Positions 1 to 14,234 of a stretch of DNA of 64,000 bases are shown here, piece by piece (the stretch's first letter is position 1; each line of letters begins with the position of its first letter). The stretch spans positions 1-64,000 of the forward strand of contig CABJBK010000011.1 in assembly GCA_902363825.1 (NCBI GenBank). Reading direction: 5' to 3'. The notes beneath the pieces were generated by a model, which saw nothing but the letters and a program-made list of their open reading frames with translations, was not told where the DNA came from and ran no database searches. This stretch comes from Lachnospiraceae bacterium (lineage in GTDB: Bacteria > Bacillota > Clostridia > Lachnospirales > Lachnospiraceae). Both the position numbers and the translations under genes were made by a program.

Positions 1-180
1 TAGGATATCACCGCCGTTTCTTTTATTGTACCATAAAACGGCAATAACAGCCAGAAATATTTAACTAAATATCAATATGTCAGTACACTAGTATGTGTTG
101 CGTTTCAATTTTCATAAAGATAACCTTTAAGAATAATTGAAGATAACCGTTGTTACATGATTGAAAAGGAGTGAAGGAGT

Positions 181-702
181 ATGCATTTTAAAAAATCTGT
201 TTTAAAAAATCATTTATTGTATAGCATTATAACTTTAATGGCTATAGCAATGCTATTTCCTATTACGGCATTTGCACAAGCTTATGTACAAACATGGGAT
301 CTTGTTGATTCTGGCAAACATCTAGACTATGACGGAAACAGCACTTACATGAGTTATATTAACACTGGGGCTGCCACATGGAATGCATATAAATCTGGAG
401 TAATCAGAAAAGACAGTGCTTTTGTTGTAGAAGATGTATACGTAAGCGATGTCAATGCTTCGAATGGATGGGCAGGCATGACATATTCTAGTGGTAAAAT
501 TGAACTCAATACCTATTATATGAGCGGTTATAGTAATAGTAAAAAACAGAATGTAGCGACACATGAATTGGGACATGCATTAGGGTTGGATCACAGTACT
601 TCAACAGATGTTATGGATGCAGCAATTACGGGACATACTAGTACGCAGGCATTATCTCAAAATGATAAAGATTCATATGATGCCGCATATAATAATTATT
701 AG
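181..702 (+). CDS. Secreted matrixin-type zinc metalloprotease
   Basis: This is a 173-residue exported zinc protease. Residues 1-32 form a signal peptide (two lysines, a hydrophobic core, then AFA before QAY). Near residue 130 the sequence HELGHALGLDH gives the three zinc-binding histidines and catalytic Glu of the HExxHxxGxxH (metzincin) motif. VMDAAI about ten residues later supplies the Met-turn. These features place it with small M10-like matrixins; it has no prodomain or C-terminal binding module. Two overlapping purine-rich ribosome sites precede the ATG. The lipoprotein gene starts 15 bp downstream and both end at the terminator at 1415, so they probably share a transcript. The substrate is unknown. 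Base composition is AT-rich like the rest of 1-5.7 kb. Confidence 0.85.
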   Translation: MHFKKSVLKNHLLYSIITLMAIAMLFPITAFAQAYVQTWDLVDSGKHLDYDGNSTYMSYINTGAATWNAYKSGVIRKDSAFVVEDVYVSDVNASNGWAGMTYSSGKIELNTYYMSGYSNSKKQNVATHELGHALGLDHSTSTDVMDAAITGHTSTQALSQNDKDSYDAAYNNY

Positions 703-717
703 GGGAGGGAGAACGCT

Positions 718-1389
718 ATGAAAAAATCAAGTATCTATGGTATTTTGTCTATTGTTCTTATCGTAGGAATGTTTTTTACAGGATGTGCATCCAAAAATAA
801 TGCAAGTCAACTGAATACAAATGTATCTAACTTGCCAATCCACCAGATGCACGCATCTTTTGTATATGATACTGATAACATTCGCGAAGCTGTTGGTATC
901 TGTGATTACGTATTTGTAGCAAAGGTTGTCAGTTGCGATGGAACCGAGTATCGAAATGTTATAACGACTGAAGATGAAAAAGGAAATCCTAAGGAGGTCG
1001 GTTCGCCTTACACTAATTATACTATTCAGGTTCTCGAAAATATAAAAGGTGAACTTATTACAGATAAACCTATTCCTATTGTTAAACAAGGCGGAATTTC
1101 AGAAAAACAAGATGCTATTTATCTGTTTGAGAATGATTCACTGCCTTCCGAAAATTCCATTTATATCTTTTTGGCATATGCACAAGAGGATGGTTCGTTA
1201 CTAATTTCTGGTCCAAATTCAAATGTAATGTGTAACGATTCGAATATGTATTCTATTAATTCTGTCTCAGAGGAAAAATCAGTTACAGAATACGATGAGT
1301 TTATTACATATAAAGATGCTAATGATAATGAGATTATTCCAGTTGATCGAGAGCGTTATAAATCTATATATGAGACTGACAATAATTAA
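718..1389 (+). CDS. Lipoprotein of unknown function
   Basis: This 223-residue protein has a lipoprotein signal peptide ending in the lipobox FTGC (Cys near residue 23), so it should sit on the outer face of the membrane. The body is beta-rich and has no catalytic motif I recognise. A segment with an IQVLENIKG-type strand, a glycine turn, and then YIFLAYAQEDG resembles the product at 4525-5208 in order and spacing. The two may be distant paralogs at either side of the cluster. A GGGGAGGG ribosome site precedes the ATG. It is co-directional with the protease 15 bp upstream and is followed by a strong terminator. Confidence 0.7.
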   Translation: MKKSSIYGILSIVLIVGMFFTGCASKNNASQLNTNVSNLPIHQMHASFVYDTDNIREAVGICDYVFVAKVVSCDGTEYRNVITTEDEKGNPKEVGSPYTNYTIQVLENIKGELITDKPIPIVKQGGISEKQDAIYLFENDSLPSENSIYIFLAYAQEDGSLLISGPNSNVMCNDSNMYSINSVSEEKSVTEYDEFITYKDANDNEIIPVDRERYKSIYETDNN

Positions 1390-1414
1390 TCATTATTTCT
1401 GAAATATATAGATT

Positions 1415-1457
1415 AAAGATGGCAGGTAGGTGCTTAACCTATCTGCCATCTTTTCGG
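1415..1457 (+). terminator. Rho-independent terminator after protease-lipoprotein unit
   Basis: A 17-bp stem (1415-1431 with 1437-1453, one G-U pair) closes a 5-nt loop and runs into TTTT. It separates the protease/lipoprotein transcript from the peptide transcript. Confidence 0.9.
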
Positions 1458-1480
1458 TTTTATACCTATATGTAGAACAG

Positions 1481-1510
1481 TTCGTGCATGTTGGGCTACC
1501 ATTCGTGCAT
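1481..1510 (+). promoter_or_regulatory. Candidate LytTR (AgrA-type) response-regulator site
   Basis: Two perfect copies of TTCGTGCAT (1481-1489 and 1502-1510) are separated by exactly 12 bp. Two 9-bp direct repeats with a 12-13 bp spacer is the layout known for AgrA and other LytTR-domain regulators. The pair ends 7 bp before the -35 hexamer, where an activator would bind. The repeat sequence itself is not the staphylococcal one. The regulator is not in this window. Confidence 0.6.
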
Positions 1511-1517
1511 AGAGGGA

Positions 1518-1545
1518 TTGAAAAAATTAAATACTCTGTTATATT
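1518..1545 (+). promoter_or_regulatory. Promoter of the AgrD-like peptide transcript
   Basis: The -35 TTGAAA (1518-1523) and -10 TATATT (1540-1545) are separated by 16 bp. The start of transcription should be near 1552, giving a leader of about 65 nt before the peptide start codon. Confidence 0.7.
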
Positions 1546-1571
1546 AAGCACATACCATGGTAAACAAATAA

Positions 1572-1596
1572 AGTTGTCTGTAATTGTCAGACAATT
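1572..1596 (+). other. Leader hairpin abutting the ribosome site
   Basis: TTGTCTG (1574-1580) pairs with CAGACAA (1588-1594), extendable by a G-U and an A-U pair, leaving a 7-nt loop. An alternative 8-1-8 palindrome spans 1581-1597. Both end directly against the AAGGAGG ribosome site at 1597. Structure here could modulate peptide translation; that role is inference. Confidence 0.45.
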
Positions 1597-1618
1597 AAGG
1601 AGGGGGGGGGTGAAAACG

Positions 1619-1765
1619 ATGGACAATAAGCAAGTAAACAAGGCACCCCAGAAAAGTGCCCGTCTCGTACTTCAGGCAGTGACTGCTATTGCTCGAAGTA
1701 ATGCAAATTCATTGTGCCGTGGTTTGTTGTATGAACCAAAAGTACCAACGCAGTTAAAAAAATAA
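1619..1765 (+). CDS. AgrD-like cyclic lactone autoinducer peptide precursor
   Basis: This is a 48-residue precursor. Its C-terminal part reads CRGLL followed by YEPKVPTQLKK. Known AgrD peptides (as I recall, C. perfringens CLWFT then HQPEEPKSL; S. aureus CDFIM then DEVEVPKEL) have a cysteine-started five-residue ring ending in hydrophobic residues, followed by an acidic/proline tail with P-x-x-L. Cys33 begins such a five-residue ring here. The N-terminal 30 residues are basic and then amphipathic, as expected for a leader processed by AgrB. A strong ribosome site (AAGGAGG, then a run of G) lies upstream; an in-frame GTG at 1610 is an alternative start. No agrB, agrC or agrA is visible, so processing and sensing genes must be elsewhere. 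It is co-directional with the secreted protein gene at 1784, 18 bp downstream. Confidence 0.8.
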   Translation: MDNKQVNKAPQKSARLVLQAVTAIARSNANSLCRGLLYEPKVPTQLKK

Positions 1766-1783
1766 GATTGGGAGGAATTGACT

Positions 1784-2203
1784 ATGATGTTAAAAAGTTT
1801 AAAACAGAAGATTGCAAAAGTAGGTATTGGTTTGTTTTGTGCAGGATGTGTATTTCTTTCTTCAGCAGCATATTCTCAGGCGGCATCTTACACCGCTTAT
1901 GCACTTAAACTGAATAAGACTAATAACTTTACCTCTATGCATGCAAAAACAACATCCGATGATTACATCACAAATGAGGTAACAGCAATTACCAATACCT
2001 CTTACGCAAATTTCTGGGCTGTCAATAACAGCAAGAGTAAAATATCTAATAAGTATAAGCAGGGTGTTGGAACAGGATCTTGTAATTTAATCTTTACCAA
2101 GAGCGGTTATAATTCTACTAACACACAGGTCGGTATGGGAATGGAAAATTATCAATCTCAATTATCAACTGCATTTGTAAGTGGAAATGTAGATTTTAGA
2201 TAA
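1784..2203 (+). CDS. Small secreted protein, DUF2712-like
   Basis: This is a 139-residue exported protein. It starts at the ATG 8 nt after GGAGG; a TTG at 1778 is too close. Residues 1-34 are a signal peptide ending in SQAA. The mature part is about 105 residues, rich in Asn, Thr and Ser, without Cys, with alternating beta-type segments (FWAVNN, then KQGVGTG, then VGMGMENY). That pattern reminds me of DUF2712 proteins encoded beside bacteriocin-type ABC transporters, but I could not check this. It shares the promoter at 1518 with the AgrD-like peptide and is followed by a terminator and an ABC transporter. It could be a secreted antimicrobial, a surface protein or a cargo of that transporter. 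Confidence 0.6.
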   Translation: MMLKSLKQKIAKVGIGLFCAGCVFLSSAAYSQAASYTAYALKLNKTNNFTSMHAKTTSDDYITNEVTAITNTSYANFWAVNNSKSKISNKYKQGVGTGSCNLIFTKSGYNSTNTQVGMGMENYQSQLSTAFVSGNVDFR

Positions 2204-2213
2204 CAGAAGGGAT

Positions 2214-2247
2214 GGGCATAAACCTCTTCGTGGGTTTATGCCCTTTT
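2214..2247 (+). terminator. Terminator or attenuator before the ABC genes
   Basis: A perfect 11-bp stem (2214-2224 with 2233-2243) with an 8-nt loop is followed by TTTT. The transporter gene starts about 10 bp later with no visible promoter, so partial readthrough would give abundant peptide mRNA and less transporter mRNA. Confidence 0.85.
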
Positions 2248-2257
2248 GGTAAAGATT

Positions 2258-3088
2258 ATGAAAAAAATGGTTCTTATAGAAATCAAACATTGTATTGATC
2301 GTGCAGAATATAAAGTTGTTTTTATTGCTCTAATGATTTTAAATATTGCTTCGTATATTTTATGTGTAAAAAATGATATAGGAAAAAGTTATCAATTTAT
2401 TCGTTCAGCAAATGAAAATTTCGTATTACAGGGCACTGAAGCGGCATATATTCCATATATAATGTATCTGTTATTGCCTGTTTATGCAACAATTATTGCA
2501 TCACTTTCCTTAATAAGAGAAGAAAAAAGCAATAGTTCAATCCTACTTATTCAAAGAATCGGGAAAAAGAAATATTTAGCAGGAAAATTATTTGGCATTC
2601 TGATTGTAACCTTTTTGACAATAACAATACCAATGCTCATAAATTTATTATTATGCCACTTGACATATCCAATACATGGATATGACAGTGCTTGGGGAGA
2701 ACCTGATTACGCTATAGGTTTGGTATCATATAACGCTGACAATTTTCTTGATATGGTGAGATTGCAACATCCAACTTTATATAATCTAATATACATTTTT
2801 AATTACGGAATTTTTGGCTCGGGATTAGCTATCTTAGCTTATGCTCTTTCATATTATAACAAAATGAAAGTTCTATATTTCGCAAAGATACCTGGTGCTT
2901 TGTTTATATTCTATATTGTTTTTAATTTGATTGTTTCTGTCTTTGGGCTAAATGAATTCTCTATACAAGGTTATATTATGCCTAATGTTCATGGAAATAT
3001 AATAGGAGAAATTGTTCTGATATTGCTTATTTTTGGATTAAGTATTGGCATTATACAGAGAAAAATAAAAAATTATGAAGTTATATAA
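2258..3088 (+). CDS. ABC-2 type transporter membrane subunit 1
   Basis: This is a 276-residue membrane protein with about six hydrophobic segments: near residues 18-36, 75-100, 115-140, 185-205, 215-240 and 255-270. A cytosolic loop IREEKSNSSILLIQR follows the second span, as in ABC-2 permeases. I chose the ATG at 2258; TTG at 2246 would start inside the terminator T-run. The ribosome site is weak. The gene overlaps the next one by 14 bp. With the genes at 3075 and 3881 it forms a two-permease plus ATPase exporter, a format common for bacteriocin export, immunity or lantibiotic resistance. The substrate is unknown. Confidence 0.7.
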   Translation: MKKMVLIEIKHCIDRAEYKVVFIALMILNIASYILCVKNDIGKSYQFIRSANENFVLQGTEAAYIPYIMYLLLPVYATIIASLSLIREEKSNSSILLIQRIGKKKYLAGKLFGILIVTFLTITIPMLINLLLCHLTYPIHGYDSAWGEPDYAIGLVSYNADNFLDMVRLQHPTLYNLIYIFNYGIFGSGLAILAYALSYYNKMKVLYFAKIPGALFIFYIVFNLIVSVFGLNEFSIQGYIMPNVHGNIIGEIVLILLIFGLSIGIIQRKIKNYEVI

Positions 3089-3875
3089 GAAAAAAATTTT
3101 GAATGTTAATGTTGGAAAATGCTTACTAGTATCACTTATAACATTTGTAATTAGATATTTTTATGCTAATGTGTACTTGGGGTTTCATAATAGTCTGGTT
3201 ACAATAACAGAAGGAGTACGTTCACAAATATATTTTGGGGGAATACTAATAGATCATTCGTTTGACCTTATATCTTTATCATTTTTTGCGATTTTGTTTA
3301 TCCTTGAGATTTGTTATCTTACAATGGACTTATTTAATGATGCAAATGATAACATGGTAATTCTACTTCCTCGTTATGGGAAAAAACACATAATTTATAA
3401 GGATATATTAATAAAAATGATATTACGTGACTGTATTGTAGTTGTTTCCGATTATTTGTTTTTTCTTTTTGTAGAGCATACCTCTAATGGCTTAGAAGAT
3501 TTCAAAGTTATTTTTATGCTATTGATAGAGATTTTTCATTTGCAAATGATTAGTTATTTGTTTTCATTTTGGAAAGATTCAATTATAGGATACATCGTTG
3601 CATTTATTGTATTTTTTATTCCAGTAATGGTGTGTGGATTTTATTTTTCAATGGGAAATGTTATATGGAAAATTTGGCATTATTCCTTGCTACATATTCC
3701 TTTATTTAATTGGCATAACAAGCTTATTATATATTATGTCGAAGAAAATTACGAATGGACTACAAGCAATATAGATTTATTGAATTTTAAGTCAAGCTGT
3801 CTCATTTCAGTTATATCATCCGCTGTTTTGGTGTGGATAGGTAAATTTCTTTGCGAAAAAAAACAAATATTGTGA
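3075..3875 (+). CDS. ABC-2 type transporter membrane subunit 2
   Basis: This is a 266-residue membrane protein with about six predicted spans, separated by a short loop containing DANDNMVILLPRYGKK. That loop matches the position of the equivalent segment in the first subunit, so the two may be diverged copies. It overlaps the upstream permease and is followed 5 bp later by the ATPase gene. Very AT-rich. No enzyme motif is visible. It probably forms the heterodimeric membrane domain with the product at 2258-3088. Confidence 0.65.
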   Translation: MKLYKKKILNVNVGKCLLVSLITFVIRYFYANVYLGFHNSLVTITEGVRSQIYFGGILIDHSFDLISLSFFAILFILEICYLTMDLFNDANDNMVILLPRYGKKHIIYKDILIKMILRDCIVVVSDYLFFLFVEHTSNGLEDFKVIFMLLIEIFHLQMISYLFSFWKDSIIGYIVAFIVFFIPVMVCGFYFSMGNVIWKIWHYSLLHIPLFNWHNKLIIYYVEENYEWTTSNIDLLNFKSSCLISVISSAVLVWIGKFLCEKKQIL

Positions 3876-3880
3876 GGTGA

Positions 3881-4525
3881 ATGATATCCATGAATTTATA
3901 TGTAAAATCTATTTCAAAGTCAATTAAAGGTGAAAAAGTGCTTGATGATATCAGTTATACATTTGAATCTGGTAAAATATATGGAATATATGGTAAAAAT
4001 GGTTCAGGTAAAACAATGCTACTCAGAGCCATTGCAGGTTTTATAAATACAGACAAAGGATACATAAAATATAATCACAAGGCATTACATAAAGATATGG
4101 ATGTTTTACCAGATTTAGGAGCTGTTATTGAAAATATTTCTTTTTGGAGTATGTATTCAGGATTTGAAAATTTGAAAATGCTTTCCAATATAAAAGGAAT
4201 TGTATCAGATGAAGAAATATATGAAATAATGATATACTTTGGTCTTGATCCCAAATCAAAGAAAAAAGTAAATAAATATTCATTAGGAATGCGTCAAAAA
4301 CTAGCTCTTTGTCAAGCACTGATGGAACATCCAAAAATTTTGCTTTTGGATGAGCCAACTAACGCATTGGATCAGCATAGCATTGATTTATTTCGTGAAC
4401 GTATATTGGAAGAAAAAAAGAATGATACCATTACTATACTGACAAGCCATAATAAAGAAGATATTGAAATATTAGCGGATGAGAAGATATGCATGGAATT
4501 TGGTAAAATTAAGGAGTTGATGTAA
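3881..4525 (+). CDS. ABC transporter ATP-binding protein
   Basis: This is a 214-residue single ABC domain. The Walker A is GKNGSGKT near residue 38, the signature is YSLGMRQK near residue 133, the Walker B is ILLLDEP near residue 156, and the switch His is in TSHN near residue 188. The compact length and the LGMRQ signature fit the BcrA/YxlF-type exporter class. The first ATG (3881) is very close to the ribosome site GAGGTG; ATG at 3890 is equally likely and would remove three residues. Its stop codon overlaps the next start by one base. It energises the two preceding membrane subunits. Confidence 0.85.
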   Translation: MISMNLYVKSISKSIKGEKVLDDISYTFESGKIYGIYGKNGSGKTMLLRAIAGFINTDKGYIKYNHKALHKDMDVLPDLGAVIENISFWSMYSGFENLKMLSNIKGIVSDEEIYEIMIYFGLDPKSKKKVNKYSLGMRQKLALCQALMEHPKILLLDEPTNALDQHSIDLFRERILEEKKNDTITILTSHNKEDIEILADEKICMEFGKIKELM

Positions 4526-5208
4526 TGAAGAAATTTGTATTAACTATCTGTGTTGTAATCATTTGTATGGTGACAGCCTTATTCTATGGAAAGACTGGGA
4601 TAAAAACAACTACAGGGGTTCATGATCCTGATATTGCTTTATCAGAAAATACAGCTATGGAAATTTTCTATACAGGAGGGCAGAAAACTTCTTACTTTAA
4701 CAATGAAAGTAATTACTCATTGGATGATATGGAAAAAGATTCTTCTTTAATAGCTCGTATAACTGTAACAAATTCTCGTGAAATGAGTTTACGATCAACA
4801 AAAACAATGGTAAAAATAGAGGAAATCTATAAGGATAATTCTGCTAATCTTTCAGTAGGTGACTGTATTTACATTATAGAACCTGTATCATTTGTTAGAG
4901 GTGAAGAATTTTACACTAACGGATGGCAATATCTGAAGACCGAAGATACTTATTTAATATTTTTAAAAAATCTAGGATGTATTGATGGGTATAAATACAC
5001 CAAAGAGGAAGAAAATTCATTTATGCCTGTATCGGAAATATATTCAAAGAGAAATCTAACTCATGATGAAAGTTGTGTGGTTTTTGATTCGGCGGAAACT
5101 CTCTATTCAAGTATATCTATGTTTGCATTTTTGACCTCAGAAAAAACTATAGTAGATAATTATGAGAAAATATGGAAAAACATTACAAATTCAGGTAAGT
5201 ATGAATGA
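4525..5208 (+). CDS. Exported or anchored protein, distant relative of the lipoprotein at 718
   Basis: This is a 227-residue protein with a single N-terminal hydrophobic segment (residues 4-21) but no lipobox cysteine, so it is a secreted or membrane-anchored protein. The region ITVTNSREMSL, KTMVKIEEIYKD, then TEDTYLIFLKNL parallels the layout of the lipoprotein at 718-1389. Function is unknown. It overlaps the ABC ATPase by one base, so it belongs to the transporter operon and could be an accessory or immunity protein. Confidence 0.6.
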   Translation: MKKFVLTICVVIICMVTALFYGKTGIKTTTGVHDPDIALSENTAMEIFYTGGQKTSYFNNESNYSLDDMEKDSSLIARITVTNSREMSLRSTKTMVKIEEIYKDNSANLSVGDCIYIIEPVSFVRGEEFYTNGWQYLKTEDTYLIFLKNLGCIDGYKYTKEEENSFMPVSEIYSKRNLTHDESCVVFDSAETLYSSISMFAFLTSEKTIVDNYEKIWKNITNSGKYE

Positions 5209-5346
5209 TTTAATTATTTATGAATGAATCTCTCCTATTCTATTTCCTGTGAGAAGCGTATCAATGTTAGAAATTCATGGAGATACTGAATTAAGCAATA
5301 TGGAATCATTCAATCTTAAAGAAACTAAAAATGGAGATAATAGAAA

Positions 5347-5709
5347 TTGAATAAAAAGAAATTGGCAAAGAGTGTTGTAGGCATTGCTTTAATTGTAAGT
5401 GTAGCTATACTTATCGTTGTATGTGTTGGAAAAATAAAGCACATTCAGAATAAAAAAAATATTATTGGTACATGGAAGAATGCAAATGCAGAGGAAGTGT
5501 TTACCTTTCAAGAAAATGGAGGACTTGTTGTAAACAAAGATATGCCCGAATTGGGTATTACCTGTGGCAATGCATTATATAGCATATCTTCCTCAAATAT
5601 GATTTTTGTGGAACAGAGAGATAATAGCGTGAATTTTGAGATAGAAGTAGATCAAAACGAATTAACAATCTTCTTTATGGGTCATAAATATTGGGAATTA
5701 ACAAAATAG
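5347..5709 (+). CDS. Small membrane-anchored lipocalin-like protein
   Basis: This is a 120-residue protein with a TTG start preceded by GGAGATAAT. Residues 9-29 form one transmembrane helix. The outside part begins NIIGTWKNANAEEVFTF and continues as alternating beta strands with an IGTWK/ENGG pattern, typical of small lipocalin-like (DUF5640-type) domains found in clostridia. No function is known. It lies 138 bp after the ABC operon in the same AT-rich DNA. Confidence 0.55.
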   Translation: MNKKKLAKSVVGIALIVSVAILIVVCVGKIKHIQNKKNIIGTWKNANAEEVFTFQENGGLVVNKDMPELGITCGNALYSISSSNMIFVEQRDNSVNFEIEVDQNELTIFFMGHKYWELTK

Positions 5710-5889
5710 CAATTGCATATAAAGCGATACTCATGATATCCATAACCATAAAATATAGAGCCGATGAATCACTCGTTATTTCGATTGTGAGTTATCGTCT
5801 CTATTTCATTATTTATGGAAGGGCTAAAGAAATATCGTATTTTATAGAAATACTTTTGACAGATTTCTTCTCATTTTTATGTTCTTTTA

Positions 5890-6132
5890 TCAAGTGCTAT
5901 ACCATTCCATATTCATCGCATTCACCCAATCTTGCATTTCTGAATCAAGATACAAACGGGCATATTCTAGTGGATTGTCAATCGCCAGTGCATCCAACAT
6001 TCGTTGAGAGTTAGGAGTAGTAATCAATCCATCTTCTGCCTTGCCACAGTCAATCCGAAGTATGTAGCCATTGTAATAATTGATGTCTATGATGTTGTGA
6101 TATTTATTATATTCTGCATGAACGATATTCAT
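5890..6132 (-). CDS. Hypothetical protein, DUF6061-like
   Basis: This is an 80-residue soluble protein with a good ribosome site (AAAGGAC) before the ATG. The sequence RIDCGKAEDGL, TTPNSQRMLDALAIDNP, then YARLYLDSEMQ matches my memory of the DUF6061 family of gut Lachnospiraceae; function unknown. It marks the left part of the decayed mobile zone and has no operon partner. Confidence 0.55.
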   Translation of the reverse strand: MNIVHAEYNKYHNIIDINYYNGYILRIDCGKAEDGLITTPNSQRMLDALAIDNPLEYARLYLDSEMQDWVNAMNMEWYST

Positions 6133-6412
6133 ATTGCAAAGTCCTTTCTCTTATCTGTTTCAGTTGTAGAAGCATCTTGACCAGTTCCAGCCGATTATGT
6201 GATTTATATAATGTTATTAGCTGTTACCGGATTTTGCTTCCCTTGTTTTTGCCCTTATGAGGTGTCGTAACACAAGGGAAAAGGATATAACATAAGGGAA
6301 AGTCTAAGGGAAAGCTCACTTGCCAAAACTGTAGTAAAATCAAGGCATTGCGGATTTTATCGTAACACTTTATAATACCAGTTAGGTGTTAAAGAATTGT
6401 AGGTATCAAAAT
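6133..6412 (+). other. Intergenic stretch with AAGGGAAA repeats
   Basis: No gene is visible. The stretch holds four copies of AAGGGAAA or close variants between about 6273 and 6316, and a block (about 6335-6356) whose two 12-mers AGTAAAATCAAG and CATTGCGGATTT recur near 9331-9367 in swapped order. It may be debris of an inserted element. Confidence 0.3.
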
Positions 6413-6805
6413 TTAGATTTTTATATTAAAAAGTACAATTTTAGGGGAAAATGCAACACGAAATGCAACACGGAAAATTCTCCGATCGATATATATGTAG
6501 CTAAGTAGCTCTGCACTATTCGGTTCATAGATTTCCGGTTGCCCTGCTATTACTGGTTTTTGGTATACAAATACCACCATATCATTTCTGACTGGCGGTA
6601 ACTTACTGTTTTCTCTTATTTGGCCTTTATACGCTTCTACAATTATTCCATCTTCCCAACCGCTTTTTTTCAGCTTCGGGAACAAGTTTCCCCAATGTTC
6701 AAAAATTTCTTTATCACTATAATCTAAGTCTTTGAACGCCTCTCTTTTTTGATCGTACTCTTCATATGTCTTAATTTTCAAGAAATCATCTTTCAAACTC
6801 ATCAT
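6413..6805 (-). CDS. Hypothetical protein, possibly 3'-disrupted
   Basis: This open frame encodes 130 residues; ATG 6805 or 6802, with no clear ribosome site. The first 100 residues are a plausible soluble protein. The last 25 are basic and hydrophobic, and the underlying DNA has a 10-bp tandem duplication (ATGCAACACG twice near 6451-6472). The natural C-terminus may therefore be lost. Family not recognised. It sits among orphan genes in the decayed zone. Confidence 0.35.
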   Translation of the reverse strand: MMSLKDDFLKIKTYEEYDQKREAFKDLDYSDKEIFEHWGNLFPKLKKSGWEDGIIVEAYKGQIRENSKLPPVRNDMVVFVYQKPVIAGQPEIYEPNSAELLSYIYIDRRIFRVAFRVAFSPKIVLFNIKI

Positions 6806-6923
6806 CTGTTTTTATAGCAAGAAACTCTTCCTTCTTATCCATTCAATGCCATACTCCTTTCCAAACTCGGTCAAGTGGCCTCACGAATCCGTAAACTAAG
6901 AATTGTTAAAAGTGCTCATTTAA

Positions 6924-7241
6924 TCACTTTAATTCCCAATTAAGCGGACAGCCTCTTCCCATCCATTCCTCATATGTAGCCTCTTCTGGCAATAATCCCC
7001 ACTGCTTCATTATATTAAAATCTGCTTTAGTACGCTTTTCCTTTTCTTCTGGTGTCATTTCTTTCGGATGAGTAAAATTATATTTCTGTTCTTCTGTCAT
7101 CTGACGATTTTCTTCTTCTGTAAAATAAATCTCACTTAATTCCATACGAAGTTTTCTACATTCCTCCGCTGACAATTCTTTTCCTCTCTCCCTTTGCTCA
7201 TCCTTTGGTAATAATAACCATTCTCTTGCTGTTAGTGCCAT
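6924..7241 (-). CDS. Hypothetical acidic coiled-coil protein
   Basis: This is a 105-residue charged protein with a perfect AAGGAGG site 7 nt before ATG. It is rich in Glu and Lys, with helical heptad-like stretches and no Cys or membrane segment. The C-terminus reads GRGCPLNWELK. Family not recognised. It starts 5 bp after the preceding gene, whose TAG stop lies within its ribosome-site region, so these genes are co-translated. Confidence 0.5.
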   Translation of the reverse strand: MALTAREWLLLPKDEQRERGKELSAEECRKLRMELSEIYFTEEENRQMTEEQKYNFTHPKEMTPEEKEKRTKADFNIMKQWGLLPEEATYEEWMGRGCPLNWELK

Positions 7242-7246
7242 TTACT

Positions 7247-7492
7247 CTACCTCCTTAAGCAAAAGATTCCAAACTCCATCATGATCCAGTTGTCTTGATA
7301 TAACTTTAAATTTACATTTTCATTTAATCCTATAGCACTTATATTTCGTCTGTTTTTAAAATCTTGAATGTAGATTTTTACATGCAGCATATCATCCATA
7401 ATCAGAGACGGCAACATCTTATCCAGCCGGAGCCGCTCTATTTCTTCCTCTATCCGCTTCGCCGCTCCCACTGCAGATATGTATGAATGCAA
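7247..7492 (-). CDS. Hypothetical small protein
   Basis: This 81-residue protein starts at a TTG, chosen because GGAGGA lies just upstream. It has an N-terminal amphipathic helix (RIEEEIERLRLDKM) and beta-like C-terminal half. It is not recognised. It is the middle gene of a tight three-gene unit (8068 to 6924). Confidence 0.45.
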   Translation of the reverse strand: MHSYISAVGAAKRIEEEIERLRLDKMLPSLIMDDMLHVKIYIQDFKNRRNISAIGLNENVNLKLYQDNWIMMEFGIFCLRR

Positions 7493-7504
7493 ATATTCCT
7501 CCGC

Positions 7505-8068
7505 TTAAACTCCTTTGTTTAGAACTTGATTATCATTTTTTCTTTCTTGGCTGTCCATTTTGCTATCAATCAATTGAACAACTTCTTCATAATATAAAAT
7601 TTTTGAATATCTTTTATCGTCAAAATAACGTTTTAAAAAATGCATAACGCCCCAAAGGATTAAAAGAAAAATAAACATCTTCGAGACATCTCCTATGGAA
7701 ATTGTAAATGCCTCGCTGATAGTATCAATGCACTCTAAAGCAAACTTCTTCTGATCATCAGCATTTTGGATCAAATTTCCAAATACCGATCCCATAGTGC
7801 TGATATTTTCCACAAACATTGTAGCAAATGCCGTTAAAAGTGAAATTAAAATTACTAAAATATTCGAATTATATGCTGCTAGATAGTCCTTTTCATCCAT
7901 ATGTTTTTCTTTTTTCAACTTAATCTCATATGTTTTCTTCATATTTAAAAGTTCCGATTTTTCGGTCACTGCAATCTCTTCGCTCACTTTTCTTTTCCAT
8001 AATGTATATTCATCTTTTTTTCCCTTATATATTTCCCTGTATTCCTTTAAATTTTTTCGGTCTTCCAT
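7505..8068 (-). CDS. Two-span membrane protein with N-terminal coiled coil
   Basis: This is a 187-residue protein. Residues 1-60 are highly charged and probably coiled coil. Residues 67-88 and 126-147 are hydrophobic spans enclosing a loop with GNLIQNADDQKK, and a charged tail ends at residue 187. It is the first gene of a three-gene unit with 12- and 5-bp gaps. No family is recognised. The small size and operon layout could suit a holin-like, toxin or immunity function, but nothing in the sequence demonstrates it. Confidence 0.5.
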   Translation of the reverse strand: MEDRKNLKEYREIYKGKKDEYTLWKRKVSEEIAVTEKSELLNMKKTYEIKLKKEKHMDEKDYLAAYNSNILVILISLLTAFATMFVENISTMGSVFGNLIQNADDQKKFALECIDTISEAFTISIGDVSKMFIFLLILWGVMHFLKRYFDDKRYSKILYYEEVVQLIDSKMDSQERKNDNQVLNKGV

Positions 8069-8247
8069 ACTTATTCCTCCTCTGATTTGATAAAAAAACT
8101 ATATCATTTATGTATTTTCCCTTCAATTCTTATTAGTCGACATTTTTCGACTTGCGTGCATGACCCCTAGTATATTTTTACGTTTTAAACAAATACTGCT
8201 TGCGCGCTCTCTAAGTTATATAAACTCACCTCATTTTGCGTAAAAAA

Positions 8248-8276
8248 TACCAACCATCGAATATTGACGGTTGGTA
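8248..8276. other. Hairpin upstream of the IS30 remnant
   Basis: TACCAACC (8248-8255) pairs with GGTTGGTA (8269-8276), with two further pairs inside. It lies between the divergent hypothetical operon and the transposase remnant and may be a terminator or part of the insertion sequence. No full inverted repeat was established. Confidence 0.4.
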
Positions 8277-8336
8277 ATATATTTATTTCTCCGTAGTAAC
8301 ATCTAACTCCATAATATTCCATTCTCTTTCTATGCA

Positions 8337-9228
8337 ATGGCTTCTTCTGGCAGACATCCCGCCACAGTGGCACATGAAATCAAAGAAAATAGAACTTATA
8401 TTCATAATACTTATTATCTTGGAAAAGATTGTGTAAATGCCAGAAGAACTAATGTTGTTCGTTATGTGTGTGGAGATTTGGATTGCGAGCAAAATTGCTG
8501 TAAATGCAGATTAGTTGATTGCCAAAAGCATTGTGATAAGTATATTTCCCAGGCTTGTTAAAAAAGGCCAGCCACCAACTCTCATTTATGCTGAACATGA
8601 AAACGAAATGCCGGTATGCTTAAGAACTCTTTATAACTATACCGATTTTGAATATGCTATGAAAGTAAAGTATACAGAGGAAAAAGTAGTAGAAATGGAC
8701 ACTGTTAAAGGCATACGGAAACAAGGAAAAAGACTTCTTTCAATGATCTTTAGAAAGAATAATGTAATGCTATTGTTTTTAATGCTAGGCAGAAAGGCAG
8801 AGTCTGTAAAAAGGGGGGTTGACTATCTTGAGACAGAACTTGGAATAGCGATATTTAGAAGATTATTTCCAGTTATTTTAACCGACAATGGCAGTGAATT
8901 TAAAAAGGTGGATGAGTCAGAACTTACATCTGACAAAGATGGCTTCCTGGTTTATAGAACAAGCCTGTTTTTCTGTGATCCAATGGCTTCATGGCAAAAA
9001 GGACGTATTGAAAAGAATCATGAATTTACCCGTTATGCTATTCCGAGAAAGAGAAGCTTAAATCCTTATAATCAGTATGACATTACGTTGCTTATGAATC
9101 ATATCAACAGCATCAAACGTCCAGAACTTGGTAACAAATGCCCCTATGAATTAATGAGGGTATTAAAAATGCACATCATCCCGCCAGATAAAGTGCATTT
9201 GATGCCAGACTTATTCATTAAAAAGTAA
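8337..9228 (+). pseudogene. IS30-family transposase, degraded
   Basis: Two frames (8337-8561 and 8515-9228) together give a broken IS30-type DDE transposase. The N-terminal helix-turn-helix is lost; the first recognisable part is ATVAHEIKENRTYI followed by the cysteine-rich segment CEQNCCKCRLVDC. A frameshift near 8550 joins to RLVKKGQPPTLIYAEH. After NYTDFEYAMKVKY the sequence jumps to VVEMDTVKG, suggesting an internal deletion. The catalytic residues remain: Asp in EMDTVKG, Asp in LTDNGSEF and Glu in GRIEKNHEF. It is not expected to be active. AGTCGA-containing sequences flank it near 8136 and 9290 but are not convincing terminal repeats. Confidence 0.85.
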
Positions 9229-9376
9229 CTAAAGACTTTGTATGCAGGTAGTAATCGATTTGTCAGTCGATTTTTTACGATTTTTCGACTATTTATTTTA
9301 TGATATGATTAATATGCTATTCTATTAACATTGCGGATTTGCACCCGGTTCGCAGTAAAATCAAGAGGATTTATCT

Positions 9377-9730
9377 ATGAAAACTTGGAAACTTGTATCT
9401 GGAATTTTATCAATCGTTTTATTTTTCATCGTTGGTTTGCAGTCATGCGCAGCCGGAATATCAAACACATTAGAAGCAAATGGCGAAGTTGGCGGCCCTG
9501 CTGGTGTTATTGTTGCAGTTATGCTTTTGTCCGGTGGAATTGTTTCGATTGCAACACGAAAGGGCGGAACGGGTGGTAACATTGCTCTTATCGTCCTCTA
9601 CGGACTTGGTGCTCTTTTCGGCTTCACATTAGCAGGCAGTTATGGTGATTTGATTATCTGGTCAGCATGGTGCTTAATTTGCGCAATTTTAGCATTGATC
9701 TGCCTTATAAAAAAGAAAAACAACAACTAA
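9377..9730 (+). CDS. Small integral membrane protein
   Basis: This is a 117-residue protein with about four hydrophobic spans (residues 6-27, 41-57, 66-83, 90-111) and a Lys/Asn tail. Gly- and Ala-rich helices and a short GEVGGPAG turn resemble small membrane proteins common on Firmicute mobile elements. Function unknown. It has no partner gene. Confidence 0.55.
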   Translation: MKTWKLVSGILSIVLFFIVGLQSCAAGISNTLEANGEVGGPAGVIVAVMLLSGGIVSIATRKGGTGGNIALIVLYGLGALFGFTLAGSYGDLIIWSAWCLICAILALICLIKKKNNN

Positions 9731-9921
9731 ACTTCAAAACGGGTGCACTATTTAATCAAAGTTGCAGGTTCTTTGAAAAATAAGAGACTTTAAACGAAAA
9801 AGCGATACCCTTTATGACATTAAGAAAAAAGAGGGAAGATAATTTCTTATTCTTTTAACAAAAACCTCACTGCGGATCGGATACCAATTAACACTAGGAC
9901 TTGTATTAGGAGAATATTCAT

Positions 9922-10770
9922 ATGTCGATTGAAATAACAAAAGAAAACGTTATCCTGAATAAAAAAGAAGCCATAAAATCATTAAATAAATTGCTTGAAT
10001 ATTATATAAATGATCCTTCTGGGAAACATTTAAAAAAGGCAAATTTAATTTCATATTGGATTAAGGATTATACTCGTTTTATTAATTTCGAAGAATCTTT
10101 TGAGCCAACTAAAAATATTTCATACAAAAGAGGAAATATTGTCAAATTAAATTTTGGTTTTAATATTGGCAGTGAATATGGCGGGCTTCATTATGGCGTT
10201 GTCCTAGATAATCACAACTCTCATAATTCTCCGGTGGTAACAGTCATTCCCCTTACCTCCGTTAAAGCTGATAAAGCGATACACTCAAATAGTGTCGGAT
10301 TGGGAAGCGAAATATATCGTTCGCTAAAAATAAAATACGATACTATTTCCAAAGCTCTTGCTGATGAGCAGGCAGAGATTTCTGAAATGCTTGCGATGTC
10401 AGACGTTCTTTCATCGCTTATGGATGAAGCCATTATCGACACACAAAATTCCGAACGTGACAGTGAAGAATTCAGCAAACATTTACATGATGCAAAAGCA
10501 TATTTAGCCGCGGCAAAAAAACTTCAAGAAGTATTGAAAGCTAAAAGCCAATATAATACCAAAGAAACAGACTATCTTAATAAGATTGGCGAAGAAATAT
10601 CCCATATGAAAGAAGGAAGCATTGCTCTCGTAAACCAAATTACAACAATTAGTAAAATCCGCATTTTTGACCCTCGCAATTTAAAAGGTGTACTTGCAGG
10701 GATTTCCCTTTCGGAAGAAAGTATGGAAAAAATCAACCAAAAAGTAAAAGAATTATACACTTTTCATTAG
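9922..10770 (+). CDS. MazF/PemK-like protein with C-terminal coiled coil
   Basis: This is a 282-residue protein. Residues 65-115 contain KRGNIVKLNFG, HYGVVLDNH and VVTVIPLTS, the beta-barrel signature of the MazF/PemK endoribonuclease superfamily. An N-terminal 60-residue helical part and a long C-terminal coiled coil (about 150-280) are added, so it is more than twice the length of a classic MazF. No antitoxin gene lies beside it. Versions like this occur in prophages and islands. RNase activity cannot be inferred from the barrel alone. It is followed by a terminator at 10892. Confidence 0.65.
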   Translation: MSIEITKENVILNKKEAIKSLNKLLEYYINDPSGKHLKKANLISYWIKDYTRFINFEESFEPTKNISYKRGNIVKLNFGFNIGSEYGGLHYGVVLDNHNSHNSPVVTVIPLTSVKADKAIHSNSVGLGSEIYRSLKIKYDTISKALADEQAEISEMLAMSDVLSSLMDEAIIDTQNSERDSEEFSKHLHDAKAYLAAAKKLQEVLKAKSQYNTKETDYLNKIGEEISHMKEGSIALVNQITTISKIRIFDPRNLKGVLAGISLSEESMEKINQKVKELYTFH

Positions 10771-10891
10771 TTTTAGTAATATTTTTATTGACTACGAGCA
10801 TAATATATCATATAATAAGCTATCTTAGAAGATTTATTTTTCTATAAATATCGCCTTTAGGGCATAAAAGAAGATATTAACTTATTATGTG

Positions 10892-10919
10892 AGAGTCTCG
10901 TAGAAATACGAGGCTCTTT
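10892..10919 (+). terminator. Terminator-like hairpin
   Basis: An 11-bp stem with one G-U pair (10892-10902 with 10907-10917) and a GAAA tetraloop, followed by a short T run, lies 120 bp after the MazF-like gene. Confidence 0.65.
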
Positions 10920-11147
10920 ACGTTATTATAACAAAATAAAAACCACCCCACTTTTCAGCAAGGCGGCATGCTCCTGATGATACAGAAGCCCTAAGCAAGC
11001 ATATTGTATCATTCTCGAAGCAGCTGCACAAGCGGAACACCCATTCCACGCTGGCTGTTATTTTTATACTTATTTTTAGGGAGGAATGCTACATCACGAT
11101 AAAAGGTTATTGTTTACGATGAGAATAATAAGCCTGAATTGATCGAG

Positions 11148-11369
11148 TGCTAACGGACAAACTTGTTCCTCTATCAAATAACAGCATTTACAAACGTTTT
11201 CAGAAGTCGATTTCTGCTGCTGGCATACCATAGACATTCCATGATTTACGGCATGTAAATGCATCCGTAATGACAATTCTCAATGTGCCGATAAATACTT
11301 ACAAGAGCGTCGAGGATAGCGATCTGACCACATCATGAAGAGTACATACATGCAGGCATTTTCCATATC
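11148..11369 (+). pseudogene. Tyrosine recombinase (integrase) remnant
   Basis: The frame from 11148 reads VPLSNNSIYKRFQKSI, a stop, then FHDLRHVNASVMTILNVP, the Arg-containing box of phage/ICE integrases. A frameshift near 11288 continues as KYLQERRG, a stop, then SDHIMKSTYMQAF, the box with the second His and the nucleophilic Tyr. Two nonsense codons and one frameshift make it dead. It ends at the 3' end of the MATE gene, at the visible change from AT-rich to GC-richer DNA. It therefore probably marks the right edge of an old integrated element. The interval 10920-11147 holds further unreadable debris, including a fragment VYDENNKPELIE. Confidence 0.75.
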
Positions 11370-12715
11370 TACTTTTTCACCACCAGCCATTTTCCCTTCC
11401 ATGTATACAATATCATGAGCACCGTGCCAAACGCCCACGAAACCGGATACAGCACAAAAACGCCATCGATCGTGGAAAACAGCGGAAGCACAAACTGGAT
11501 CCAGATGATCCGAAACAGGCAGAGGGAGGTCAGAAGGATCACCATCGGCGGCACACTTTTTCCTGTTCCGCGAACCGTTCCCGCCAGTCCGTGCATAATA
11601 CTGAGCAGGAAATAGAACGGACAGAAATAGCGCATTGCCTGTTTTCCGAACGCGATCACCGCCGCGTCTTTCGTAAACATCCGCATGAGCGGATCCGCAA
11701 AAGTAAGCAGCAGCACTCCTGTCAGTATCGTGTACACAAAACCCATCGCAAGCGTGACCCACATGCCCTTCTTCACGCGGTCGATCTTTCCTGCGCCGTA
11801 ATTCTGCCCGGTAAATGTTGTCACTGCCATGCTGAAGCTCATGACCGGCAGGATGTTGAATCCGTCAATCTTCATATATGCCCCGAATCCCGCCATCGCC
11901 GCAGCACCAAAGCCATTGACACTGGACTGCACGAGCACATTGGAAAACGAGATGACCATATTCTGGATCCCGGTCGGCAGTCCGACTGTGATGATCCGGG
12001 CTGCCATCTTTTTCTGTACCCGGATCTTTCCGAGGCTGACCTGATAATCCGCCGGCACGCGCATCAGAAAAAGCAGGGACAGCACGCAGGAAACAAGCTG
12101 GCTGATGTCCGTTGCGACTGCCGCTCCCGCGACACCCATATGAAGCCCTGCGATCAGCACCAGATCCAATACGATATTCGTAACGGACGCGACCGCCAGA
12201 TAGAGCAGGGAACGCCTGGAATTTCCTGCCGCATTTAAGATCCCCGCCGCCATATTATAAAGTACGCTAAAGATCACACCGCCAAAATAGAGTTTCAGAT
12301 ACAGTGCGGATTCGTCAAACACCTCTGCCGGTGTATGCATCCACCGCAGCAGCTGACTGCTAAAGCAGATTCCGCCCACTGTGATGATCACGCCAAGGAG
12401 CGCCGAGAGTGCGATCGCCGTGTGAACCGCATCCTGTACTCCCTGTTTTTCTTTCGCGCCAAGATACTGCGACACGATCACGCCGGCTCCGACCGCCAGC
12501 CCCTGGCTGAACGCGATCAGAAGGCAGATGATCGAAGTACTCGACCCGACTGCCGCAAGCGCGTTGCTTCCCACAAAATTTCCCACGATAATGGAGTCCA
12601 CGGTATTGTACAGCTGCTGCAGCAGATTACCCAAAATCAGCGGCACCGAAAAGAAAAATATTTTCCTTGCGATGCCGCCTTCTGTCATAAGTTCCGTCTT
12701 ATTGTTATTTTCCAC
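11369..12715 (-). CDS. MATE family multidrug/sodium antiporter
   Basis: This is a 448-residue, twelve-span inner-membrane transporter. The N-terminal PLILGNLLQQLYNTVDSIIV segment and repeated SFSMAVTTFTGQNYGAG block are typical of DinF/NorM-type MATE exporters, which extrude cationic drugs or metabolites with Na+ or H+. The length is normal. It starts at GTG with AAGGTGAT upstream. An extended -10 (TGCTATAAT) lies about 40 bp upstream. Its 3' end abuts the decayed integrase. Confidence 0.9.
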   Translation of the reverse strand: MENNNKTELMTEGGIARKIFFFSVPLILGNLLQQLYNTVDSIIVGNFVGSNALAAVGSSTSIICLLIAFSQGLAVGAGVIVSQYLGAKEKQGVQDAVHTAIALSALLGVIITVGGICFSSQLLRWMHTPAEVFDESALYLKLYFGGVIFSVLYNMAAGILNAAGNSRRSLLYLAVASVTNIVLDLVLIAGLHMGVAGAAVATDISQLVSCVLSLLFLMRVPADYQVSLGKIRVQKKMAARIITVGLPTGIQNMVISFSNVLVQSSVNGFGAAAMAGFGAYMKIDGFNILPVMSFSMAVTTFTGQNYGAGKIDRVKKGMWVTLAMGFVYTILTGVLLLTFADPLMRMFTKDAAVIAFGKQAMRYFCPFYFLLSIMHGLAGTVRGTGKSVPPMVILLTSLCLFRIIWIQFVLPLFSTIDGVFVLYPVSWAFGTVLMILYTWKGKWLVVKK

Positions 12716-12753
12716 TTTCTATCACCTTAATTTCTATCCTCAGACTGTCTGTT

Positions 12754-12762
12754 ATTATAGCA
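12754..12762 (-). promoter_or_regulatory. Extended -10 promoter of the MATE gene
   Basis: On the minus strand the sequence TGCTATAAT is a perfect extended -10 element, about 40 bp before the GTG start. No good -35 is seen, as allowed for extended -10 promoters. Confidence 0.55.
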
Positions 12763-12807
12763 CAGTGGAAAATATTTTTTAATATCAATTTTTAAATGTC
12801 TGCCATT

Positions 12808-13920
12808 TTAGTCCTGCGGTTTGAAATCCCGGATCAGATTCCAGGTTGGCAGTGCGTTTCCTTCGTAATCGAACAGTGCCTGGTTTGCCCATTCATTTCC
12901 GCACGGTCCTTTATCGTTCATGTATTTTAAAGATGCAGGAGTCGCCCATCCGGAACCGGCAACCGGAATCCACGCCGGCTCCCAGTAGAAAAAGCCTTTT
13001 CCCTTGTTTCCTTTGATGTGGCTGATTCGGTTTAAGAAATCTTCCATAAAATCATACTGTCCCTGAACCGTCATCGGATACTCGATCTTTTCCACCAGCT
13101 CCGGTTTGGTCGCGTAGCCTTTTCTCTCATCATCCGAAAGCTTTTCGTAGGTCTTATAATCCTCCATCGTATAGCCCATTGAAACTTCCGCAATCACAAG
13201 ATCCTTTCCGTAACGCTCCGCGATATCATTCATATTGTCTGTCAGCATATCCAGCGTTCCATGCCAGAACGGATAATAGGACAGACCGATGATCTGGAAA
13301 TCTTCGCCGCGCTTTGTGAATTCATCAAACCACTCGCGGTAAAGCGCGTTGTTTCCACCATTGTCAAGATGGATCATGACCGGCACATCCTTCTCCACCG
13401 CGCGCACGCCACGGATACCGGCATTGACGAACTTCGCAATGTTATCATAATTCGGCACCTTTCCTTCCGGCCAGAGCAGCCCGTTGGAAAGCTCGTTTCC
13501 GACCTGCACCATCGTTGTGTTGATGCCGTTTTCTTTGAATACTTTCATCGTGTCTGCAGTAAAATCATAAACTGCCTGTTCCAGCTCTTCTACGCTGTAA
13601 CCTTCCCACGCCTTTGGCTTGATCTGTTTTCCGGGATCTGCCCAGAAATCACTGTAATGGAAATTTAACAGCACACCAAGTCCCGCATCTGTCACTTTTT
13701 TTGCGATCGCAAGCGTGTTCTTTAAGTCATTTTCTCCTGCGCCGTAAGATTCTCCGTTTTCCGACCACGGATCATTCCACAGACGGATACGGATCGTGTC
13801 CACATCATATTTTTTCATGATGTCCAAAATATCCGTTTCCGTTCCATCGACATAATACTTCGCGCCACATTTTTCCAGTTCCAGCAAAGTTGATAAATCC
13901 ATTCCCTTGACAAATTTCAT
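12808..13920 (-). CDS. Cytoplasmic GH53 endo-beta-1,4-galactanase
   Basis: This is a 370-residue glycoside hydrolase family 53 enzyme with no signal peptide. The start at 13920 has GGAG upstream; the open frame extends 25 codons further but that part is not family-like. Family motifs are KGMDLSTLLELEKCGAKYY, TIRIRLWNDPW and NFHYSDFWADPGKQ. The acid/base Glu is in QVGNELSNGLLWPEG and the nucleophile Glu in VIAEVSMGYT. It should cleave imported galacto-oligosaccharides inside the cell, complementing the surface enzyme at 19997-21934. A hairpin at 13982 separates it from the upstream genes, so it may be expressed by readthrough. Confidence 0.9.
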   Translation of the reverse strand: MKFVKGMDLSTLLELEKCGAKYYVDGTETDILDIMKKYDVDTIRIRLWNDPWSENGESYGAGENDLKNTLAIAKKVTDAGLGVLLNFHYSDFWADPGKQIKPKAWEGYSVEELEQAVYDFTADTMKVFKENGINTTMVQVGNELSNGLLWPEGKVPNYDNIAKFVNAGIRGVRAVEKDVPVMIHLDNGGNNALYREWFDEFTKRGEDFQIIGLSYYPFWHGTLDMLTDNMNDIAERYGKDLVIAEVSMGYTMEDYKTYEKLSDDERKGYATKPELVEKIEYPMTVQGQYDFMEDFLNRISHIKGNKGKGFFYWEPAWIPVAGSGWATPASLKYMNDKGPCGNEWANQALFDYEGNALPTWNLIRDFKPQD

Positions 13921-13981
13921 ATCGTTCTCCTTCTTCGTTTTTCTATGTGAAAATCTCCATTTTTCCTTTCCTATTCGAAAA

Positions 13982-14008
13982 CAGCTGCCGCACATTTGTA
14001 CGGCAGCT
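13982..14008 (-). terminator. Hairpin between zinc-ribbon gene and cytosolic GH53
   Basis: An 8-bp perfect stem (AGCTGCCG with CGGCAGCT) is followed on the minus strand by GTTTTC. It is a weak terminator or attenuator within the galactan operon. Confidence 0.6.
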
Positions 14009-14015
14009 TCTGTTT

Positions 14016-14234
14016 TCAGTCAAAATCAAACTTTGTAATTCTCTCGTGCATCGCTTTGTAGCGGAAACGGATCATTTCGTTTTTCTCTAATACGTCCTCT
14101 TCCGTTCCTCTGTACTGGCAGCGGATGCAGCTGTAAATACCGGTATCCTTGTTATAAAACATATCAATGTCCAGATCTCTTAAAAAACAGGATGGGCATC
14201 TATAATTTAATTTGCCTTTGCCAAGTTGAGCCAT
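14016..14234 (-). CDS. Small zinc-ribbon protein
   Basis: This is a 72-residue protein with two CxxC pairs (CPSC near residue 13 and CIRC near residue 36) that should bind one zinc. It starts inside the end of the DUF3863-like gene (28-bp overlap), so translation is coupled. The role is unknown; it might be a nucleic-acid or protein adaptor, or a conserved bystander. The C-terminal half is charged and helical. Confidence 0.6.
   Translation of the reverse strand: MAQLGKGKLNYRCPSCFLRDLDIDMFYNKDTGIYSCIRCQYRGTEEDVLEKNEMIRFRYKAMHERITKFDFD

Follow-up and report, generated by a model that had tools for sequence, protein, structure and literature searches.

The data presented in this study make it very likely that the agrD gene near the left end of a 64,000-nt stretch of DNA from a Lachnospiraceae bacterium (the window; contig CABJBK010000011.1, positions 1 to 64,000) encodes the precursor of the signal in a quorum-sensing system of the agr type, and that this system resides on a 14.5-kb integrative mobilizable element and works in the manner proposed here. 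The initial annotation had read agrD as an orphan that goes with a secreted protein and a transporter instead of an agr operon of its own. However, copies of the same element in two other genomes carry agrC-agrA-agrB, and agrD is thus probably part of an agr-type system on a small mobile element and not an orphan. The element itself encodes a secreted protease and a secreted protein, and both seem to be under control of the signal. The kind of system is known; the layout is unusual, and it is packaged as a mobile unit that crosses genera. The features visible in the window are given in Table 1, where sec139 is a working name for the gene of a 139-aa secreted protein that comes next after agrD.

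Table 1. Features of the element part of the window and of its left border
Feature	Position	Strand	Basis
IS630-type insertion sequence end	1-87	-	93% over 86 bp to IS end in G126; inserted at CTAG (88-91)
Right part of the element (14.5 kb where whole)	88-6413	.	6413 is the element's right end
M10-type (matrixin) metalloprotease, 173 aa	181-702	+	PF00413 36.4 bits, cut-off 24; signal-like start read by eye
Lipoprotein-like protein, 223 aa	718-1389	+	ORF; lipobox-like start read by eye
Terminator-like hairpin, 17-pair stem	1415-1453	+	Consensus scan; divides protease operon from agrD promoter
LytTR/AgrA-type site TTCGTGCAT-N12-TTCGTGCAT	1481-1510	+	Sequence; near-copy at L003 8137-8166
Promoter-like TTGAAA-16-TATATT, TG ahead of -10	1518-1545	+	Sequence, consensus scan
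agrD, 48 aa, ends ...SLCRGLLYEPKVPTQLKK	1619-1765	+	TIGR04223 40.6 bits; 45 homologue clusters
sec139, 139 aa	1784-2203	+	N-terminal hydrophobic helix, predicted mostly beta; 36 homologue clusters
Terminator-like hairpin, 12-pair stem	2214-2243	+	After sec139
ABC permease 1	2258-3088	+	PF12679 30 bits, cut-off 27.2
Membrane protein, probable ABC permease 2	3075-3875	+	Position; 25% homologue at matching place in L005
ABC ATPase	3890-4525	+	PF00005 105.2 bits; nearest are lantibiotic-protection ATPases, TIGR03740 146.9 bits, below cut-off 309.75
p227, 227 aa, probably membrane-anchored	4525-5208	+	Homologues behind ABC gene in L005, L006, L007
Small protein, 120 aa	5347-5709	+	Weak DUF5640 likeness, below cut-off
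DUF6061 small protein	5890-6132	-	PF19537 46.1 bits, cut-off 23.7; near right end of element

The mobile unit was recognised from a profile scan of genome contigs with the sec139 alignment, which gave seven loci, three of them holding window sequence. Two are from Fusicatenibacter saccharivorans D41t1 (locus L001, genome G001) and Roseburia faecis M72 (locus L003, genome G002). The third, L002, is a 4,955-bp contig of a Leptotrichiaceae MAG that is element sequence throughout and may be mis-binned, and it was left uncounted as a further host. Window positions 87-6413 correspond to L003 8304-14630, with one mismatch to L003 and two to L001 in 6,327 bp. L001 and L003 have 110-14630 in common at 99.98% identity and differ in both flanks, and we therefore regard the unit as mobile and about 14.5 kb long; the window flank to the right of 6413 differs from the flanks of both. 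Among 397 sampled family genomes, the closest dnaB to that of the window is 78% alike, and those of F. saccharivorans and R. faecis are only 74% and 73% alike, so the window represents a third lineage. At the level of sequence, the near-identity of the element across genera implies transfer. The GC content is 35% for the whole element in L003, 48% for the host part of the window and 44% to the right of the element in L003.

The left half of the element holds a tyrosine integrase, an HTH regulator, a Tn916-type excisionase (xis) and a MobA/MobL-like relaxase (25.5 bits, narrowly under the Pfam cut-off of 26.7), followed by agrC-agrA-agrB running leftward. Taken as a whole, the unit thus combines integrase, excisionase and relaxase and occupies different sites, as an integrative mobilizable element does. 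With regard to type IV secretion, the ORF lists of the element, taken alone, leave no large frame unaccounted for. In L001 a 10-bp repeat (ATTGGAGTTT) lies across both junctions, and a search of the ends in L003 for a repeat of at least 9 bp found none. An open frame at L003 14603-15463 extends across the right end of the element into R. faecis host DNA, so the insertion may interrupt an R. faecis gene. To the right of the element in the window, positions 8515-9228 hold an IS30-family transposase-like frame (65.7 bits, NCBIfam cut-off 80) that is possibly a remnant. A plasmid origin was considered and dropped after a megablast of window 1-8200 against plasmids gave 0 matches, as was a phage origin after viral contigs scanned with AgrC and with the sec139 alignment gave no confirmed relative. 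The single match from a distant search of window 1-8000 against phages was a 4.7-kb faecal "Bacteriophage sp." record without annotation (MT838947.1), 71% alike over 408 bp to window 832-1239, within the gene of the 223-aa lipoprotein-like protein; this protein had no Pfam or NCBIfam family above cut-off.

The three agr proteins of the element were assigned in L003. AgrB scored 95.3 bits with PF04647 (cut-off 23), and His77 and Cys84, which we take to be its catalytic residues, are kept in all three aligned proteins. AgrA has a LytTR domain (PF04397, 60.1 bits) and a receiver domain (PF00072, 48.6 bits), both over cut-off, and AgrC has a GHKL domain (66.9 bits over residues 339-445) behind a putative N-terminal membrane part read by eye. 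The NCBIfam equivalog cut-offs were missed by far (AgrB-like 28.5 against 282, AgrA 49.1 against 400). In both L001 and L003 the agrC-agrA-agrB operon points away from the half that carries the protease and agrD genes, and some 3.9 kb lie between agrB and agrD. It had been proposed that a genome without AgrB or a LytTR regulator would speak against the agr reading, and both carriers of the same element were found to have them. The F. saccharivorans genome has one match to the AgrB family and one to the AgrD family, both on the element, and six LytTR domains; the R. faecis genome has nine AgrB over cut-off and ten AgrD matches, the element's own included, and 15 LytTR domains. AgrB and AgrD matches of R. 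faecis M72 lie on contigs C19, C92, C17, C33, C70 and C13 (loci L053-L056, L059 and L060), several of them near contig ends. At L060 (C13), agrB-, agrC- and agrA-like genes lie beside an ABC ATPase and a permease that are distantly like those of the element.

The statement that no AgrB, AgrC or AgrA lies within the window held up: tblastn of ten proteins against the window gave a best E of 0.07, and AgrB, AgrA and AgrC profiles built from three to four sequences each, run on the 812 stop-to-stop frames with a length of at least 40 aa, gave 0 matches at E <= 10. The reason is that the window starts inside an insertion sequence located between agrC and the protease operon. IS630-family elements are marked by a DDE_3 transposase and a TA-centred target that is duplicated on insertion. 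A single IS end is visible in the window, and its assignment to IS630 depends on a relative in genome G126 that supplies the rest; this relative is 1,273 bp long with HTH_29 and DDE_3 (79.3 bits) transposase parts in two frames and CTAG at both ends. The window begins just outside the expected start codon of the transposase, and the IS-end stretch had matches in 15 of 299 sampled family genomes. The CTAG at window 88-91 is uninterrupted at L003 8305-8308, between the promoter and the start codon of the protease operon; thus, in the window copy this operon is cut off from its AgrA-type promoter.

The position of this insertion raises the question of whether agrD is truly separated in the window's strain, with the IS marking a deletion that removed agrBAC and the remaining agrD surviving as a responder to, or a substrate of, a different agr system in the host. 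Base 1 of the window is inside the IS and the DNA to its left is out of view, and Lachnospiraceae may hold several AgrBs; with nine over cut-off in R. faecis, others could process the element's peptide in that host. However, the visible junction is a plain IS insertion into CTAG with no sign of deletion on the visible side, and L003 has this CTAG undisturbed at the corresponding place, which makes a separated agrD quite unlikely. With agrBAC present on the whole element in L001 and L003, the orphan reading was set aside, and we infer that in the window's own strain these genes lie beyond the IS, to the left of base 1.

The initial annotation was accurate in its coordinates and letters for the repeats, the promoter and agrD. 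Its reading of the 48-residue product as an AgrD-like precursor is supported by the score with TIGR04223 (quorum_AgrD), well above the cut-off of 19 with 47 of the 48 residues supplied to the scan; a Pfam scan of the peptide gave 0 matches up to an E of 1. The Cys-started ring CRGLL is followed by the tail YEPKVPTQLKK, and the Cys and the P-x-x-L of the tail are invariant in all eight aligned precursors. Loss of these residues in homologues had been named as a check on the AgrD reading. Both are retained in 26 of the 45 homologue clusters, 24 with the pattern CR-x(2-4)-YEPxxPxxL and two with YEL in place of YEP, and the remaining 19 hold truncated or fused versions of an identical or almost identical sequence. 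The ring variants among the relatives are CRGLL, CRGLM and CRGFM.

The twin repeat ahead of the agrD promoter occupies 1481-1489 and 1502-1510, with a gap of 12 bp and a distance of 7 bp from the second repeat to the -35 hexamer, as had been noted for a LytTR-type site. The 64-kb window has five start positions, at three distinct places, for exact 9-mer twins separated by 12 bp, whereas 50 first-order Markov sequences gave a mean of 0.26 and a maximum of 2; the other two places are TTTTTTATG and a GC-rich overlapping run. The twin by itself is thus only moderately unlikely. Its placement 7 bp before a promoter, together with a near-copy of the whole site on the same element, puts it beyond chance. 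This near-copy is TTTGTGCAT-AGTGAGCTACCA-TTCATGCAT-AGAGGTATTGAAA...TATATT at L003 8137-8166, ahead of the protease operon, and the letters surrounding the two sites are also alike. A pattern merged from both sites matched exactly these two element sites in each of the F. saccharivorans and R. faecis genomes when no mismatch was allowed. With two mismatches there were eight matches in F. saccharivorans and seven in R. faecis, compared to four and one for the reversed control; there is an excess in R. faecis (7 versus 1), and no host target is claimed. AgrA sites are described as direct repeats directly upstream of P2 and P3 (PMC4227749), and the LytTR repeats described for Streptococcus mutans are 9-bp direct repeats, mostly with a 12-bp gap, 4-11 bp ahead of the -35 (PMC6193735). 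The predicted layout on the element agrees with these descriptions of AgrA sites (PMC4227749) and LytTR repeats (PMC6193735). Each element would thus have two predicted sites of AgrA-type direct repeats, in front of putatively autoinduced promoters, and the earlier suggestion that agrD is autoinduced appears likely. The 5' leader of agrD was considered as a structured RNA and is unremarkable (z -1.12). No Rfam family was over gathering score in window 1-8000, so a known RNAIII-like RNA is absent there.

Two hairpins (1415-1453 and 2214-2243) delimit the protease unit and the agrD-sec139 unit. In the working proposed for the element, AgrB would cleave and cyclise AgrD to a thiolactone, with CRGLL as the probable ring, and this signal would activate AgrC and lead to phosphorylation of AgrA, the LytTR regulator. 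AgrA would then bind the two 9-mer pairs, each with a 12-bp gap, that stand ahead of the protease-lipoprotein operon and of agrD-sec139, and the signal would be autoinduced, and with it the secreted products. The most likely task of the ABC transporter and p227 would be to protect the producer from the secreted product, or else to export that product. The genes and sites, the presence of this DNA at different positions across genera and the IS junction are read directly; processing, ring size, binding, autoinduction, the roles of sec139 and the transporter, and agrBAC in the window's own genome belong to the model.

No Pfam family was above cut-off for sec139. Its predicted fold was left unused as a clue (mean pLDDT 67.5, best PDB E-value 0.011), as the matches ranged over carbohydrate-binding modules, viral capsid proteins and other proteins. 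By analogy with the lantibiotic-protection ATPases, sec139 and the ABC genes would most likely form a secreted effector with self-protection, though we place this step somewhat short of even; the ABC ATPase also missed the bacteriocin transporter cut-off (L_ocin_972, 94.5 against 254.85). The operon with a secreted protein and the proximity of an ABC ATPase that scores best, if below cut-off, with lantibiotic protection would also fit a different role for the AgrD-like peptide, namely as a product (a cyclic peptide with an antibacterial or other effect) and not a signal. However, the peptide scores as a quorum-sensing AgrD, its own promoter bears a LytTR-type site, and a histidine kinase and a LytTR regulator are on the same element. 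Additionally, the ring varies in relatives, and agr signals vary in ring sequence. A role as product is therefore very unlikely, and the peptide is treated here as a signal.

It was also considered whether the element is mobile while its agr unit is decaying cargo that is non-functional in many carriers. The window copy has an IS, and many clusters of agrD and sec139 are altered. In addition to the 19 altered agrD clusters, the 36 sec139 clusters comprise 10 divergent ones and 26 from the same element, of which 24 are cut, shifted or fused and one of the two counted as unaltered is one residue short. Clusters were assigned to the altered, unaltered or divergent group by hand, from segment lists. 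However, the control gene p227 gave a similar picture (13 clusters, three divergent and eight of the 10 same-element ones altered), so assembly error or biased clustering may account for much of the alteration. When member sequences are counted, most are unaltered (539 of 641 for sec139 and 918 of 1,033 for p227), and of the altered ones (102 of 641 and 115 of 1,033) single clusters give 44 and 107, respectively. The genes are also open in L003. Decay of the agr unit in many carriers is thus unlikely. Selection for loss and assembly error are both possible sources of the altered agrD and sec139 clusters; the difference between 24 and eight distinct altered clusters is suggestive, although assembly error and clustering at 90% may both exaggerate it. 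Since the control is altered too, we do not claim that sec139 is repeatedly inactivated under selection. Many of the clusters P0001-P0080 (window 1619-2203) are the sequence of this element with various changes to agrD and sec139, namely deletions, frameshifts, an inversion or new tails, as in P0027, P0036, P0037, P0045, P0059 (44 members) and P0018 (on a 611-kb contig).

The preferred reading, an agr-type system on mobilizable DNA, can be compared with several known systems. The element has the same four parts (AgrB, AgrD, AgrC and AgrA) as agrBDCA of Staphylococcus aureus. However, they are in two divergent blocks with agrD in an effector operon away from agrB, and they sit on mobilizable DNA without a known RNAIII-like RNA (window 1-8000). 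The LytTR regulatory systems of S. mutans and others also have 9-bp repeats, mostly with a 12-bp gap, and positive feedback (PMC6193735). In these systems the partner of the LytTR regulator is a membrane protein, whereas the element has a two-component pair with AgrB and AgrD. Agr genes on mobile DNA are also a feature of Clostridioides difficile agr3 and phage phiCDHM1, which have agrC, agrB and agrD with no agrA found (PMC3901668, PMC5225093). In contrast to these, the element carries agrA, sites and target genes together, and does so across genera. A tyrosine integrase with a Tn916-type excisionase at one end, a MobA/MobL-like relaxase and varied sites are shared with Tn916-type integrative mobilizable elements, of which this layout is typical. 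Their counterpart here has a quorum-sensing unit as cargo, with no resistance gene recognised among the scanned element proteins. No report of this unit was found in the titles and abstract openings of the open-licence literature, and PMC7278147 has AgrD once, in a reference title.

Quorum sensing is usually taken as a property of a species. With signal, sensor, regulator, sites and targets on one near-identical unit, a mobile element may set quorum membership. A tentative and rather doubtful extension is that the element is a self-transferring kin-recognition unit: carriers across gut genera would have one peptide in common that they both produce and perceive, and the element would in this way count its own copies across species and turn on protease and effector, with self-protection aboard, only where carriers are common. 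The single AgrB and single AgrD found in F. saccharivorans D41t1 make a clean test possible in that strain.

Relatives of this layout are found outside the element. With the element's AgrB as query, four of 397 sampled family genomes gave matches at E <= 1e-20, namely the F. saccharivorans and R. faecis genomes and two other Lachnospiraceae, G272 and G342, whose agr loci are L061 and L062 and whose AgrB proteins have 38-39% identity to that of the element. The order there is agrB, agrA (62% in G272 and 55% in G342) and agrC (51% and 43%), divergent from agrD. The single operon of agrB, D, C and A seen in S. aureus is absent from L003, L061 and L062, in each of which agrC-agrA-agrB stands opposite agrD. 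Behind agrD in both genomes are a protein with a signal-like start, two membrane proteins, an ABC ATPase and a DUF5028 protein, to which G272 adds a DUF5027 protein. The membrane proteins are permeases by position, with one of the four reaching a tblastn E of 1e-3 against the permeases of the element. Kinship of sec139 to the secreted proteins of L061 and L062 was rejected (profile comparison probability 1.2%); they have only their position in common. The agrD promoters of both genomes align with that of the window. In G272 the 9-mers are CGTTCGTGT and CGTTCGGGT, 21 bp apart, and in the G342 promoter a 9-mer pair with at least 8 of 9 matches was not found, the repeat being degenerate. Relaxase relatives are present in both genomes on contigs other than those of agr.

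In a Pseudobutyrivibrio MAG (L004), a sec139 relative lies near a contig end, and a search for further element genes found none at E 1e-3. A cassette of sec139, permease(s), ABC ATPase and a p227-type gene recurs in Clostridium and Paenibacillaceae MAGs at L005 2866-7499, L006 10001-14151 and L007 10001-14213. In L005 a LytTR response regulator is located just upstream of the cassette, and the sole AgrB found in that genome is on another contig.
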